From the NCBI GenBank assembly GCA_025358205.1, contig JANYKG010000012.1, positions 1 through 49,223 of the forward strand: 49,223 bases of DNA, in the 5' to 3' direction. Of the stretch, positions 2,990 through 46,528 are shown piece by piece. Source of the DNA: Armatimonadota bacterium (GTDB taxonomy: Bacteria; Armatimonadota; UBA5829; DTJY01). Positions within the stretch are counted from its first letter, which is position 1. Every line of letters starts with the position of its first letter. The notes under the pieces were generated by a model, which worked only from the letters and a program-made list of their open reading frames with translations, searched no databases and was not told the origin of the DNA. The translations under genes and the position numbers were made by a program.

Positions 2990-4408
2990 TCACGCATTTG
3001 CGAGCTTGCCGAACCTGTTTGCTATTGCCAGTGCCGGGTCAACCGGCACCTCTGCGGGAACAACGTCCGCCGGGATATCTATGACCGGAACCGCCTTCAT
3101 TGTCTTTCCTGCGAACTGAGGGAGCCACCTGGCCTCTGCCGCGAACATCTCGCGCGCCATCTCCCTGGCCTCATAGAGCGTACAGACCGCCGATGTCAGC
3201 GGGTCGAGCGCAATCGCTGCCGCCACAAGCTCGGGATCGCCTGTTAGCGCGGCCTGAACGGTGAGCCCCTGAGCATTGACGTTGGTCAGGTTCACCGCCG
3301 CCAACTGAGCGGGCAGGTTGCCGACGACTGTCGGATGCAGGCCCATCTTGTCAACGAACATCGGTATCTCGACGCAGGAGCCGTTCGGGAGATTGGTGAT
3401 GTAGCCGTCGTTCCGAACGTTGCCGTTCAGCTTGAAGATTTTTCCGGTCTCTTTCGCCTCGATGATATACGAGCAGTATTCCGCGCTTCGGGGTGTCAGA
3501 TCCTTCGACTCGATGCTGAGCGGATCGGTGGTTCTGAACTTCTCCTCAAGCATGCGGCCGTACTTGTAGTATGCACCTGTCGCCCCGCCGAAGTCAGGCA
3601 TGTCGCAATACATGTCGAGCGCTTTGCGGTTCTTGCGGAACCAGGGCAGGTACTCGGAAAGATGGCCGGTGCTTTCGGTCATGAAGTAACCGAAGTGGCG
3701 GAAGACTTCGCCGCGAACCTTTTCGTTGATGTAGTATTCCGGCTTCTCGAACTTTTCGCGTAGGGTGGGGTAGAGGTCCTTGCCGTCCTTCTCCAGCTTC
3801 AGGAACCATGCCATGTGGTTAATGCCCGCAGCGGTGTAGTCAATCTCGTCTTTCTTAAGGCCCACGTAGCCCGCGATCAGGTCCATCGTGGTCTGCACGC
3901 CGTGGCAGAGGCCGACGAACTGCAGTCCCGGCACGGTGCCAAGCGCCCAGCAGTTGGCCGCCATCGGGTTCGCGTAGTTCAGCATGATGGCGTTCGGGCA
4001 AAGCTCGGCCATGTCCTTGGCGATGTCCATAAGAACGGGAATGGTCCTCAGCGCGCGGAAGATAGCGCCGGCAGATAGAGAGTCGCCGATGCACTGATCC
4101 ACGCCGTATTTCAGCGGAATCTCGTAGTCCGCCTGGAACGCATCCATTCCGCCGACCTGGATCATGATGACCACATAGTCGGCTCCGTCCATGGCTTTCC
4201 GCCGGTCGGTGGTTCCCCAGACCTTTGTCGGGAGGTTGTTCTCCCGGATCACGTCCTTGGCGAACGCTTCCATCTTGCCAAGTCTGTTCTCGCTGGGGTC
4301 CATCAGGGCAAATTCACTGTCCCGAAGGGCCTCCGTAGCCATAATGTCGTTCATGAGCGTCTTCGTAAACACGACGCTCCCTGCACCAATCATCGCAATC
4401 TTCGGCAT
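2990..4408 (-). CDS. GH4 family glycosidase (alpha-glucosidase/alpha-galactosidase MelA type)
   Basis: A 472-residue cytoplasmic enzyme of glycoside hydrolase family 4, which needs NAD+ and a divalent metal and cleaves by redox-assisted elimination. Visible: the dinucleotide motif MIGAGSVVFT at residues 6-15, the NPM segment after LNYA near 147, the metal-binding Cys168-His169 in GLCHGVQTT, and His198 in GINHMAW. Length is typical. The open frame extends 30 codons upstream, but GGAGG seven nt before ATG 4408 and the family's MPKIAMIGAG start fix the true start. It heads a short operon with the Gfo/Idh oxidoreductase and the DUF6785 membrane protein. A cluster of four hairpins lies directly upstream. 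Exact substrate (alpha-glucoside, alpha-galactoside or glucuronide) is not resolved. Confidence 0.9.
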   Translation of the reverse strand: MPKIAMIGAGSVVFTKTLMNDIMATEALRDSEFALMDPSENRLGKMEAFAKDVIRENNLPTKVWGTTDRRKAMDGADYVVIMIQVGGMDAFQADYEIPLKYGVDQCIGDSLSAGAIFRALRTIPVLMDIAKDMAELCPNAIMLNYANPMAANCWALGTVPGLQFVGLCHGVQTTMDLIAGYVGLKKDEIDYTAAGINHMAWFLKLEKDGKDLYPTLREKFEKPEYYINEKVRGEVFRHFGYFMTESTGHLSEYLPWFRKNRKALDMYCDMPDFGGATGAYYKYGRMLEEKFRTTDPLSIESKDLTPRSAEYCSYIIEAKETGKIFKLNGNVRNDGYITNLPNGSCVEIPMFVDKMGLHPTVVGNLPAQLAAVNLTNVNAQGLTVQAALTGDPELVAAAIALDPLTSAVCTLYEAREMAREMFAAEARWLPQFAGKTMKAVPVIDIPADVVPAEVPVDPALAIANRFGKLANA

Positions 4409-41200: not shown

Positions 41201-41418
41201 TCATTCAGGTTCCAGATGCGTCGGTATTCAAATCAGGGCAGCAGTTGCGGATATACGACATTCAGGCCGAGGATTCGTTCAACATTCCGTGTAATATCAG
41301 CATTACGAAGAAAAAAGACAGCATCAACATTGACTCAGATACGTCCGGTTTGCTGAAGATCGGTAGCCGCGAGTGGCGCTTTGGAATCGGCAAATCTGCG
41401 ATTGCATCCGAGTATTGA
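38242..41418 (+). CDS. Secreted heparinase II/III-family polysaccharide lyase-like protein
   Basis: A 1058-residue exported protein, last of the glycan operon. Signal peptide of about residues 1-24 (MHRLAVGVLIVLGLHAYGG...). Two CxxC pairs follow (CPVCK near 92 and CLNCK near 114), which look like a metal site. The alpha/alpha toroid runs to about 470 (HHDGQYYETSNMYSEHA holds the likely catalytic Tyr and His). The heparinase II/III C-terminal beta domain begins at THGHRDDLNLNFFA, followed by ETGSHNLVMVN. The final 350 residues are beta-rich and unassigned. AAAGGGG lies 7 nt before ATG. Family members eliminate uronic-acid-linked glycans (heparin, alginate, ulvan); the target is unknown. Confidence 0.88.
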   Translation: MHRLAVGVLIVLGLHAYGGQSAMAAERAHPHLYLTSQDVIRAQQNVKRFPWAKRYFDEVEARADKWTEKSDADIRALLPPPASLFAYGFAGCPVCKASWPLWGVGDICSFENPCKVTCLNCKRVFPDAEHPDDGKGWYDAASGRTYYFVACYNSFVAQTLTLTTLDDLSTIYSLTGDEKYAHAAAAVFDAIAKIYPTCTVGSIDYPRHPGGRFERTEYQVARVLVFFAKYYDLLYNSPSLDAASMAGESTIRKSIEERILKDGAKWCYDHGNSGLYGLTNGEADYVRGVMSVGLALNMPDYIDWSVSGPYSIVNQIENNIHHDGQYYETSNMYSEHAVGLYRDMAEMLINYRSDKYRQGINLYETPKFSKALVQGSLDVICAGHVPRYGDSGPDVQKGSQISADMRLAFMNAEHMYARAGDAGARTKWADALNELSGGDVESFRNETTGLFKSWLLYHAEPIAKQKVKGEAVPSESTLLDGKGLAILRSGAGETARAAFVRYGPSVTHGHRDDLNLNFFALGRELTYDFGYSLGSAHVQTGWAHETGSHNLVMVNEKNQLDAGPSGGSAELFAAGDVVKMAELSSDNAYKSEGVKLYRRTLALINTDSKHSYLVDIFRVNGGNTHDLLWHALGDTMDVEGAAMSEQQPGSVASPDYEWGTKVGTDGDINGQADKGPYWVAPPGNGYGFLYGVRRGPEEKPLSATWTVNQQSGEKLRIDLLPPKGCEVITAKGPGILQKLPHANFTILRRKGKDLNSTYTSILQPNDGKNPVMGVERLGAEIIDGSPSAVKINLVDGRTDYVFSSLSGQNMYALDDGSEFRGRFAFCRFGAAELESAMLAGTKHMSVVGVQIDADQSSYWGQITSVDYENCAAVVNRKLPTDGSLTGKGIYINRPAYGHSSYYKIKSVRVQNGESLIALDTGTLILGSGYVGKSAEAGTQDVDNLVPLEMSRSCQALDTGYFIGKLVVSGDGARSAIDNVKAADGKRIIQVPDASVFKSGQQLRIYDIQAEDSFNIPCNISITKKKDSINIDSDTSGLLKIGSREWRFGIGKSAIASEY

Positions 41419-41443
41419 CATCACTCACGCGCTTAGGTATAAT
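41415..41443 (+). promoter_or_regulatory. Perfect consensus sigma-70 promoter for CDF exporter leader
   Basis: TTGACA (41415-41420), 17-nt spacer, TATAAT (41438-41443): a full match to the consensus at optimal spacing. It overlaps the stop codon of the heparinase-like gene. The predicted start near 41450 gives a leader of about 160 nt before ATG 41611. Confidence 0.85.
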
Positions 41444-41449
41444 CTGGTT

Positions 41450-41610
41450 AGTCGGCACTCCGGCTTAGCGTATAGTAACTGAATAGTTGCGCGTTAATGA
41501 TAGATCAGGCGATCCGCCACGACGGATGGTGCCGGGCTTAAAAGCAGCAGGTGAGACCTGTGGGACTACTTTTTGTAAGTTCCATGGGTCTTTTTGTTTT
41601 TGGAGGACAA
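41450..41610 (+). promoter_or_regulatory. Structured leader, candidate transcription-terminating riboswitch
   Basis: P1: 41452-41459 pairs with 41528-41535 (core CGGCAC/GTGCCG). Inside it, P2 is a long stem-loop: 41465-41471 with 41491-41497 (TTAGCGT/GCGTTAA), a bulge at 41472-41474, then 41475-41480 with 41485-41490 (GTAACT/AGTTGC) and a GAAT loop. P3 is 41512-41516 with 41523-41527 (ATCCG/CGGAT). These form a three-way junction with a 14-nt joining strand (41498-41511). Then CAGGT-GAG-ACCTG (41548-41560) uses the same bases as the 5' side of the terminator at 41554, so the two folds exclude each other. I cannot match it to a riboswitch family I know. The gene behind it is a zinc-type CDF exporter. 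Confidence 0.65.
41554..41601 (+). terminator. Intrinsic terminator inside the CDF gene leader
   Basis: A hairpin of 16 base pairs (41554-41569 with 41575-41591, one bulged A at 41577, four G-U pairs, TTTTT loop) is followed by TTTTGTTTTT. It ends immediately before the GGAGG (41602-41606) of the exporter gene, so it can only act as a conditional terminator of that gene. Confidence 0.8.
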
Positions 41611-42486
41611 ATGTCTCAGACTTCATTGAAAATGGGTGTAGCAAAACTGTCTGTAATCTCGAACACCATACTTGTCGGGTCGAAGTTGGCGATAGGATTT
41701 GTTACCGGCTCAGTCAGTATTATCGCAGAGGGCATTCATTCCGGCATTGACCTTGTGGCAGCGCTGATCGCGTATTTCGCGGTTCGAGTTGCAGATCGTC
41801 CGCCGGACGAAACCCATGCTTACGGTCATGGAAAGTACGAGAACATCTCAGGTACAGTTGAGGCGTTGTTGATAATACTCGCCGCAGTGTACATTGCGTA
41901 TGAAGCTATTCAGAAATACCTGCACGGCGGCGAACTGGTGAATCTTAACCTGGGTATAGCCATCATGGTCGTTTCTGCTGTGTTGAACTGGATTGTCTCT
42001 GCGAATCTATTCAAAGTGGCGAAACAGACCGACTCCATTGCGCTTGAAGCCGACGCCCATCATCTTCGTTTGGATGTATACACATCACTTGGCGTCTTCG
42101 CGGGTTTGATTGTGGTGAAGATCACGCACCTGGTGATTGTGGACCAGATTCTGGCTTTTGCAGTCGCTCTGTGGATTGGATGGGTAGGCATACAGATATC
42201 CATGAAAGCAGTCGGGCCGCTGCTCGACCAACAGCTTCCCCTGGACGAGATCGAGCGAATCGCGACTATCATAGACTCGGACGAACGGATCGTGGCACAT
42301 CACAAACTGCGAACTCGAAAGTCGGGCGCTCACAGGCACGTGGATGTTCACCTGCTGATGCCGGTTGATATGACCCTTACAGCCGCACATGCTATCGCAG
42401 AGGAAATTGAGGATCAGATTCGAGAGGAGTTTGCCTTCACCACCGTGGTGACCCACGTGGAACCTGAAGACGACCATCAACTGTAG
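41611..42486 (+). CDS. Cation diffusion facilitator (CDF) family metal exporter, zinc-type
   Basis: A 291-residue inner-membrane protein with six predicted membrane segments and a C-terminal cytoplasmic ferredoxin-like domain (HHKLRTRKSGAHRHVDVHLL). The transport site in TM2 is His43-x3-Asp47 (IHSGID) and in TM5 His151-x3-Asp155 (AHHLRLD). This HD/HD pattern is known from zinc and cadmium exporters, while manganese and iron types use Asp at all positions. It exports metal from the cytoplasm in exchange for protons. ATG 41611 has GGAGG 4 nt upstream; a GTG at 41551 in frame lies inside the terminator and is rejected. Expression is probably controlled by the leader described above. Confidence 0.92.
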   Translation: MSQTSLKMGVAKLSVISNTILVGSKLAIGFVTGSVSIIAEGIHSGIDLVAALIAYFAVRVADRPPDETHAYGHGKYENISGTVEALLIILAAVYIAYEAIQKYLHGGELVNLNLGIAIMVVSAVLNWIVSANLFKVAKQTDSIALEADAHHLRLDVYTSLGVFAGLIVVKITHLVIVDQILAFAVALWIGWVGIQISMKAVGPLLDQQLPLDEIERIATIIDSDERIVAHHKLRTRKSGAHRHVDVHLLMPVDMTLTAAHAIAEEIEDQIREEFAFTTVVTHVEPEDDHQL

Positions 42487-44411: not shown

Positions 44412-44936
44412 ATGGCGTCCACTCATGGCATTGTTCAAGTTTATACGGGAAATGGCAAGGGGAAAACCACCGCAGCCTGGGGGCAGGCGATGCGGGCAGT
44501 GGGTCAAGGCTTGCGGGTGGCTGTCGTTCGGTTCCTCAAGCCGAACGATTCCGGTGAACTTCATGCTGCGAAGAGTCTTGGAATAGACGTGTTCGGCTTC
44601 TGTACTCCATATGACCCCACGGTTAATCAACGTGACTGTCCACAGATTCGTGAGGATTGCAGACACGCGTTTGATGAGGCCTGTGCGTTATTGAATTCAG
44701 GCAAATATGACATGGTTGTTCTGGATGAAATCAACATGGTTCTACACTATGACCACATAGACCGAGAGGAGATGCTTGTCTTCCTATCGGGTAGACCGGA
44801 TGATATTGAGATTGTGCTTACCGGGCGAAATGCACCGGAGTGGTTAGTTGAGAATGCCGATCTGGTTACCGAAATGCGCGAGATCAAGCATCACGCTGCG
44901 GAGGGATGCAAAATGCGAAAGGGGATAGAGTATTGA
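44412..44936 (+). CDS. cobO: Cob(I)yrinic acid a,c-diamide adenosyltransferase
   Basis: A 174-residue cytoplasmic enzyme of the CobA/CobO/BtuR type that transfers the adenosyl group of ATP to a Co(I) corrinoid. The P-loop YTGNGKGKTTAAWG is at residues 11-24, VVRFLKPND follows, then the VVLDEINMVLHY Walker B-like segment and the LTGRNAPEWL signature. Length is typical. The ribosome binding site is poor. Its stop TGA overlaps the TTG start of the URO-D-like gene, linking corrinoid activation to that protein. Confidence 0.94.
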   Translation: MASTHGIVQVYTGNGKGKTTAAWGQAMRAVGQGLRVAVVRFLKPNDSGELHAAKSLGIDVFGFCTPYDPTVNQRDCPQIREDCRHAFDEACALLNSGKYDMVVLDEINMVLHYDHIDREEMLVFLSGRPDDIEIVLTGRNAPEWLVENADLVTEMREIKHHAAEGCKMRKGIEY

Positions 44937-46009
44937 CCGGAAGAGAGCGATTTTTGACGGCATTGCGGCGCGAGCAACCGGATCGGGTTCCCGTTTGGGA
45001 GCTTATCATCAACGAACCAACGCTGTCCGGCATATACGGTAACATTGGCTACTTCGGCCTGGCAGAAAAGTTGGGGCTGGATGCTGTCACTATCTTTGAG
45101 AACCAGAAGACCGAGGATTTAGGTAACGGCCACATCAAGGACGAATGGGGTATTGTCTGGGGAGTAGGGGACTACGGCCTTACTTATCCAGTTGAATGCC
45201 CAATCAAATCCATGTCCGACTTGGATACTTATCGCGCGCCTGATCCCAACGCGGACTGGCGGCTCGATCGGGTGAAGGAGGCTGTCACTCGTTTCAAGGG
45301 CGAGAAGGCTATCACTCTCTGCTGTCACGAAGGCTTCGAGTTTTCTCACTATCTCTTCGGCATGGACAACCTTTTCATGGCTTATCTTGAGGCTCCGGAG
45401 ATCGCGCACAGGCTGGCAAGAATGGTTGTTGACTACAAGAAAGCAGTGCTGAAGCGTGCTATAGCTGAAGGCGTGGATGTGATCGTCTCAGGTGATGACT
45501 ATGCCTTCAAGACGGCGCCACTGATGTCGCCTGGATTCTTTGACGAGTTTTGCGTTCCATACATTAAAGAGATGGTGGATGCTGCTCACGAGTGCGGAGC
45601 GCCGTTCGTCAAGCATACGGACGGCTTCCTTTGGCCAATCATAGATTCTATTGTAGACTGCGGAATTGATGCTCTTGATCCTATTGAGCCGATTGCCGGC
45701 ATGGATATCGGCAAGGTGAAAGAAAAGTACGGTCACCGAATCGCGCTTGTCGGAAATGTGGACTGCACAGAGGTACTCACACACGGGAGCCGTGAGGATG
45801 TGGTGGATGCGGTAAAGGAGACCATCGCGAAAGCATCGGTAGGTGGTGGTCACATCATGGCGTCGAGCAACAGCATTCATCCGGGCGTGACACCTGATAA
45901 CTATCGTACTATGGTCGAGGCCGCGCATGAGTTCGGTGTCTACCCGCTCGACGCGATGATGGTGGAAGAGTACAAAACGCGCAATTACATCGCGAAATAC
46001 CTTGCGTGA
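44933..46009 (+). CDS. URO-D family protein, MtaA/corrinoid methyltransferase-like
   Basis: A 358-residue TIM-barrel protein. TGRERFLTALRREQPDRVPV is the usual URO-D-family N terminus but the HemE arginine motif does not follow. VKHTDGFLWPIIDSIVDCGID and GNVDCTEVLTHGSREDV, then GGHIMASSNSIHPGV, are closer to MtaA/CmuA-type and generic URO-D relatives than to the two other paralogues in this window. Start: AAAGGGG lies 8 nt before TTG 44933, while ATG 44906 has a GAGGG directly abutting it. It overlaps cobO by 4 nt, which supports a corrinoid-linked methyl transfer role, as an inference. Confidence 0.86.
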   Translation: MTGRERFLTALRREQPDRVPVWELIINEPTLSGIYGNIGYFGLAEKLGLDAVTIFENQKTEDLGNGHIKDEWGIVWGVGDYGLTYPVECPIKSMSDLDTYRAPDPNADWRLDRVKEAVTRFKGEKAITLCCHEGFEFSHYLFGMDNLFMAYLEAPEIAHRLARMVVDYKKAVLKRAIAEGVDVIVSGDDYAFKTAPLMSPGFFDEFCVPYIKEMVDAAHECGAPFVKHTDGFLWPIIDSIVDCGIDALDPIEPIAGMDIGKVKEKYGHRIALVGNVDCTEVLTHGSREDVVDAVKETIAKASVGGGHIMASSNSIHPGVTPDNYRTMVEAAHEFGVYPLDAMMVEEYKTRNYIAKYLA

Positions 46010-46441: not shown

Positions 46442-46528
46442 TGGTGCCGAAGGTCGGGGTCGAACCGACACGAGGTTGCCCTCTCTGGATTTTGAGTCCA
46501 GCGCGTCTGCCAATTCCGCCACTCCGGC
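46442..46528 (-). tRNA. tRNA-Leu (anticodon CAA)
   Basis: On the minus strand the molecule runs from GCCGGAGTGGCGGAATTGGC to CTTCGGC-A-CCA. The acceptor stem is GCCGGAG/CTTCGGC (one G-U). The anticodon stem CTGGA/TCCAG encloses CTCAAAA, giving anticodon CAA (46494-46492), which reads UUG. A long variable arm (GAGGGCAACCTC) and the TTCGACC T-loop fit class II tRNA-Leu. The 3' CCA is encoded (46444-46442). It lies between panD and sppA, opposite to both. Confidence 0.97.

Follow-up and report, generated by a model that had tools for sequence, protein, structure and literature searches.

The window, by which we mean the whole 49,223-nucleotide stretch of Armatimonadota DNA analyzed here, contains a gene for a cation exporter of the CDF family that is preceded by a structured leader with a promoter, an intrinsic terminator and a ribosome-binding site (Table 1). 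In a sequence-only reading, this leader had been put forward as a possible new riboswitch class for zinc or cadmium. The promoter described there as perfect agrees with TTGACA (41415-41420) and TATAAT (41438-41443) in 12 of 12 positions with a spacer of 17 nt, and the GGAGG motif (41602-41606) and the ATG at position 41611 were likewise read correctly. Among the genes found in the source genome, a single one encodes a CDF protein of this kind.

Table 1. Features of the exporter locus and its leader (positions refer to the window)
Feature	Position	Strand	Basis or remark
Heparinase II/III-like protein, 1058 aa, PF07940	38242-41418	+	Stop codon overlaps promoter -35 box
Sigma-70-type promoter TTGACA-N17-TATAAT	41415-41443	+	Sequence read; 12/12 match
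Leader stem-loop, 13 bp, 5' of aptamer core	about 41465-41497	+	Predicted folds
NiCo (czcD) aptamer, RF02683 model 1-96	41491-41570	+	45.4 bits, cut-off 37
NiCo P1 5' side: ATAG, C41506	41500-41506	+	Pairs with G41564 and 41566-41569; cmscan alignment
NiCo P2 stem-loop (GGCGATCCG...CGGATggTGCC)	41508-41533	+	cmscan alignment, 33-leader pair counts
Conserved junction GG	41534-41535	+	cmscan alignment
NiCo P3 hairpin GCTT-AA-AAGC	41536-41545	+	cmscan alignment, pair counts
NiCo P4 hairpin GCAGGT-GAG-ACCTGT, antiterminator	41547-41561	+	3' strand common to terminator
Conserved GGGAC and P1 3' strand	41562-41569	+	Also within terminator 5' arm
Intrinsic terminator	41554-41601	+	Arms 41554-41569 / 41575-41591; U-run 41591-41601
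Ribosome-binding site GGAGG	41602-41606	+	Read from sequence
CDF-family cation exporter, 291 aa	41611-42486	+	PF01545 (Cation_efflux) and PF16916 (ZT_dimer) above cut-offs

The entire 49-kb window was scanned by cmscan with all Rfam models at their curated cut-offs. Two matches were obtained, namely a tRNA-Leu (46445-46528, minus strand) and the NiCo riboswitch RF02683 (E=3.3e-7), whose alignment covers the full model from position 1 to position 96 of 96. A permissive scan of positions 41300-41700 (401 nt) returned NiCo again (E=2.7e-9) and otherwise one chance match to ToxI. None of the 14 control genomes contained a NiCo match. The yybP-ykoY riboswitch (RF00080), whose core the sequence-only reading had likewise looked for in vain, gave no match in the permissive scan even at E <= 10 and was ruled out. 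Because of the significant match to a known Rfam family, which the sequence-only reading itself had named as decisive against novelty, the new class is rejected, and we consider it nearly certain that transcription of the downstream CDF exporter gene is governed by a NiCo (czcD) riboswitch in this leader.

The conserved NiCo core, which had been reported as missing, is present with all its parts: C41506-AGGC, GCC-GGG-C (41531-41537), GCA (41544-41546) and GGGAC (41562-41566). P1 to P4 are arranged as a four-way junction with G-rich junctions (GG ... GGGAC) and one weak outer P1 pair. The core was probably overlooked at first because the P3 and P4 loops are short, unlike those of the textbook drawing. 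In the NiCo structure, junction guanines coordinate the metal (PMC7689651). By analogy, the GG at 41534-41535 would provide two of the four metal-coordinating guanines and the GG at 41562-41563 the other two, if our mapping of the residue numbers holds. The 13-bp stem-loop upstream of the core, noted before and recovered in the predicted folds, appears compatible with the NiCo fold according to these models.

The terminator hairpin was also located where the sequence-only reading had seen it, and its arms are followed by TTTTTGTTTTT. Upon folding, the terminator segment reached -26.2 kcal/mol as compared to -11.8 +/- 2.7 for shuffled sequences (z = -5.4). This plus-strand terminator was absent from the output of the terminator scanner, probably because of a bulge in the stem, and was revealed by direct folding. 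The P4 hairpin and the terminator overlap at 41556-41561. Since the 3' strand of CAGGT-GAG-ACCTG is part of the terminator 5' arm, the two structures are mutually exclusive, as had been proposed, and the switching logic claimed for this locus, a transcription-terminating riboswitch ahead of a CDF exporter, stands with a terminator that overlaps P4 and P1. For the full leader, the predicted energy of the terminator fold is -58.3 kcal/mol versus -34.2 kcal/mol for the aptamer-constrained fold; thus, a ligand should be required to keep the leader open. The NiCo class has been described as an ON switch in which the metal stabilizes the four-way junction and prevents the terminator (PMC7689651, PMC7917058). 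If metal binding, ON direction and ligand are carried over from this class, the P4 3' strand and the P1/GGGAC segment would, without ligand, be drawn into the strong intrinsic terminator and transcription would end. A divalent metal would bind to the two GG-containing junctions of the P1-P4 four-way junction, and the metal-bound junction would keep P4 and P1 together. With the terminator blocked, the exporter would be produced, so that the leader may act as an ON switch for metal excess.

The distribution of NiCo in related genomes was assessed as well. The source genome contains one copy, as does each of the five genomes examined from the same order (5/5), and 16 of 28 genomes examined from the class carry one copy each. 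Across the phylum, matches were found in at least 33 of 291 Armatimonadota genomes, 32 of them above the cut-off, a count that is a lower bound because the filters of the phylum-wide scan were stricter and two matches from the class scan were lost. In the 33 leaders, the central pairs of P1 to P4 are standard in 32 to 33 cases, and no leader deviates at the C-G and G-C pairs of P1, at pairs 1-3 of P2 and P3 or at pairs 1-4 of P4 (33/33); this conservation leans towards the model since the leaders were collected with it. Several pair types occur at positions of P2, P3 and P4, e.g. TA, CG and TG at pair 3 of P3 or AT, GC and GT at pair 3 of P4, and GGGAC is retained in 32/33 leaders. In all 33 leaders, the segment from the P4 3' strand through GGGAC can re-pair downstream into a hairpin beside a T run. 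The 3' arm of this terminator lies downstream of the NiCo model and therefore provides independent support.

The sequence-only reading had instead built its architecture on a P1 of CGGCAC (41453-41458) and GTGCCG (41529-41534) enclosing two hairpins. The letters of this pairing are present, and the fold of minimum energy includes it (-38.4 kcal/mol versus -34.2 for the aptamer fold). However, GTGCCG is the 3' strand of NiCo P2 together with the first junction G, and a 6-nt upstream complement of this segment exists in 2 of the 33 leaders, that of the window and one of the 32 others (L030). The pairing is thus private to the window sequence and, being unconserved across the leaders, was discarded as a class-defining P1. 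According to the predicted folds, it might tune the switch, or it might have arisen by chance. An Armatimonadota NiCo aptamer with a lineage-specific ligand other than Ni/Co, e.g. Zn, that is tuned by this private 5' pairing in competition with P2 seems unlikely to us.

The competing pairing bears on a further possibility, i.e. that the NiCo aptamer has decayed and the leader, no longer sensing a ligand, works as a plain terminator or attenuates constitutively. The score of the window copy, in the lower half among relatives that reach up to 57.5 bits, would also fit such decay. Against the NiCo assignment as such, this score is moderate for the family, the last pair of P2 and one pair of P1 depart from standard pairing in this copy, and the 5' leader can adopt the competing pairing. 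Nevertheless, every highly conserved core letter is retained, and promoter, terminator overlap, ribosome-binding site and exporter are intact, so that we judge decay to be very improbable. The sequence is an intact and typical NiCo copy within the family covered by Rfam.

The exporter itself is assigned to the CDF family at the superfamily level and lies below all NCBIfam equivalog cut-offs. Its closest solved relatives are FieF/YiiP (PDB 3h90, 2qfi, 5vrf), aligned over residues 11-286. The site-A motifs HSGID and HLRLD give an HD/HD pattern, from which the sequence-only reading had derived Zn or Cd as ligand. Phylum-wide, HD/HD is found in 25 of 25 NiCo-led CDF proteins with both motifs readable, the window protein included, as well as in 47 of 52 classified nearest CDF relatives in named genomes, among them relatives without NiCo; in the other five, one of the two sites was unparsed rather than different. 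In the literature, HD-HD at site A occurs both in clades assigned to Zn and in one assigned to Fe (PMC5703985, PMC9993123). The motif, being common to the NiCo-led CDF proteins and to the published zinc and iron clades, gives no ground for separating the switch from the NiCo class, and a Zn/Cd ligand based on it was rejected as the motif is not discriminating. For a new Zn or Cd class with the CGGCAC/GTGCCG pairing as P1 around two hairpins, there would remain the existence of that pairing in the minimum-energy fold and the HD/HD site. Set against the full-length NiCo match over the curated cut-off, a P1 that uses up NiCo P2 and is found elsewhere in just one leader, and the commonness of HD/HD with and without NiCo, such a class has a practically negligible chance of being real.

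At 26 of the 33 NiCo loci, the next gene encodes a CDF exporter. A P1B-type ATPase lies behind the switch at 5/33 loci, directly or after other small genes, with the ATPases of L021, L029 and L117 being recognized solely from their clear resemblance to those of L033 and L116. One locus (L009) runs off its contig, and at another (L026/L114) no exporter lies within the stretch read. The nearest relatives among named genomes are Armatimonadota. Rfam scans covered the loci of 60 out of 80 close CDF relatives from named genomes, and four of these have NiCo, namely L034 and L053 (Candidatus Zipacnadia), both Armatimonadota, and those of Anaerospora and Pelosinus. NiCo is a regular element in one Armatimonadota class, mostly ahead of CDF exporters and else ahead of heavy-metal P-type ATPases.

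Several side observations were made at these loci. In L116 (G036:C141), L114 (G035:C13) and L117 (G058:C17), NiCo stands at the start of a unit that encodes a Rieske [2Fe-2S] protein, a small membrane protein with no match in Pfam, or both. The Rieske protein (PF00355) is encoded in L116 and apparently frame-broken in L114, and a heavy-metal P-type ATPase follows in the units of L116 (TIGR01525) and L117. A redox Fe-S protein in a NiCo regulon could bear on iron as the ligand. Genome G035 has two NiCo copies, one preceding a P1B-type ATPase of 621 aa (L115, from position 3033) and one preceding the Rieske and membrane-protein genes (L114, reverse strand, from position 734). The NiCo-led P-type ATPases of L021, L029, L033, L115 and L116 share a TPCPL motif in the transport helix, which presumably resembles that of P1B-5 ATPases, a group associated with the export of Ni/Fe. 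In the window, two genes lie 2-3 kb downstream (44412-46009, plus strand), one for a corrinoid adenosyltransferase (CobO/BtuR family) and one for a member of the URO-D family; any cobalt link of these genes to the riboswitch is speculation. In an uncultured Selenomonadales sequence (L062), a RAGATH-18 RNA (RF03064, 68.1 bits, 1212-1286) lies upstream of a CDF gene with its match at 2001 and is probably an unrelated neighbor.

A member of the NiCo class would be expected to bind Ni2+/Co2+ (or Fe2+) cooperatively and to show read-through when the metal is bound. The first description of the class reportedly named Ni/Co as the ligand. According to reviews, later work found a response to Fe(II), and affinity in relation to availability in the cell favors Fe/Mn (PMC7689651, PMC11477304). 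The in-cell metal of the class is thus contested between Ni/Co and Fe(II), which the window sequence cannot decide. In this lineage, the physiological signal could be Fe(II), or several transition metals together, and the exporter an iron or broad-range pump. This reading, a sub-question of the NiCo explanation and not an alternative to family membership, is backed by these reports, by the HD-HD iron clade and by FieF/YiiP as nearest solved relative. However, FieF pumps Zn/Cd as well, and we give an iron or mixed signal slightly less than an even chance.

Overall, one candidate new riboswitch class is removed by this work, an outcome of little weight on its own, while the Armatimonadota NiCo loci provide a comparative set for the question of which metal NiCo senses in cells. 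When compared with known systems, the exporter belongs to the same protein family as FieF/YiiP over residues 11-286 but differs in its HD/HD site A from the DD/HD of FieF (PMC5703985 and alignment). The yybP-ykoY element is a Mn2+ riboswitch with a metal-sensing four-way junction at metal-homeostasis genes (PMC6754395); the window leader is likewise a metal-sensing four-way-junction riboswitch by its class but has no RF00080 match. With NiCo RF02683 it shares the whole model with four helices and all core motifs, the terminator overlapping P4/P1 and the site upstream of a CDF (heavy-metal transporter) gene. It differs in its occurrence in Armatimonadota, in P3 and P4 loops that are very short, and in 40 nt of additional 5' sequence that contain a separate stem-loop and the private competing pairing, none of which goes beyond the variation of the family.
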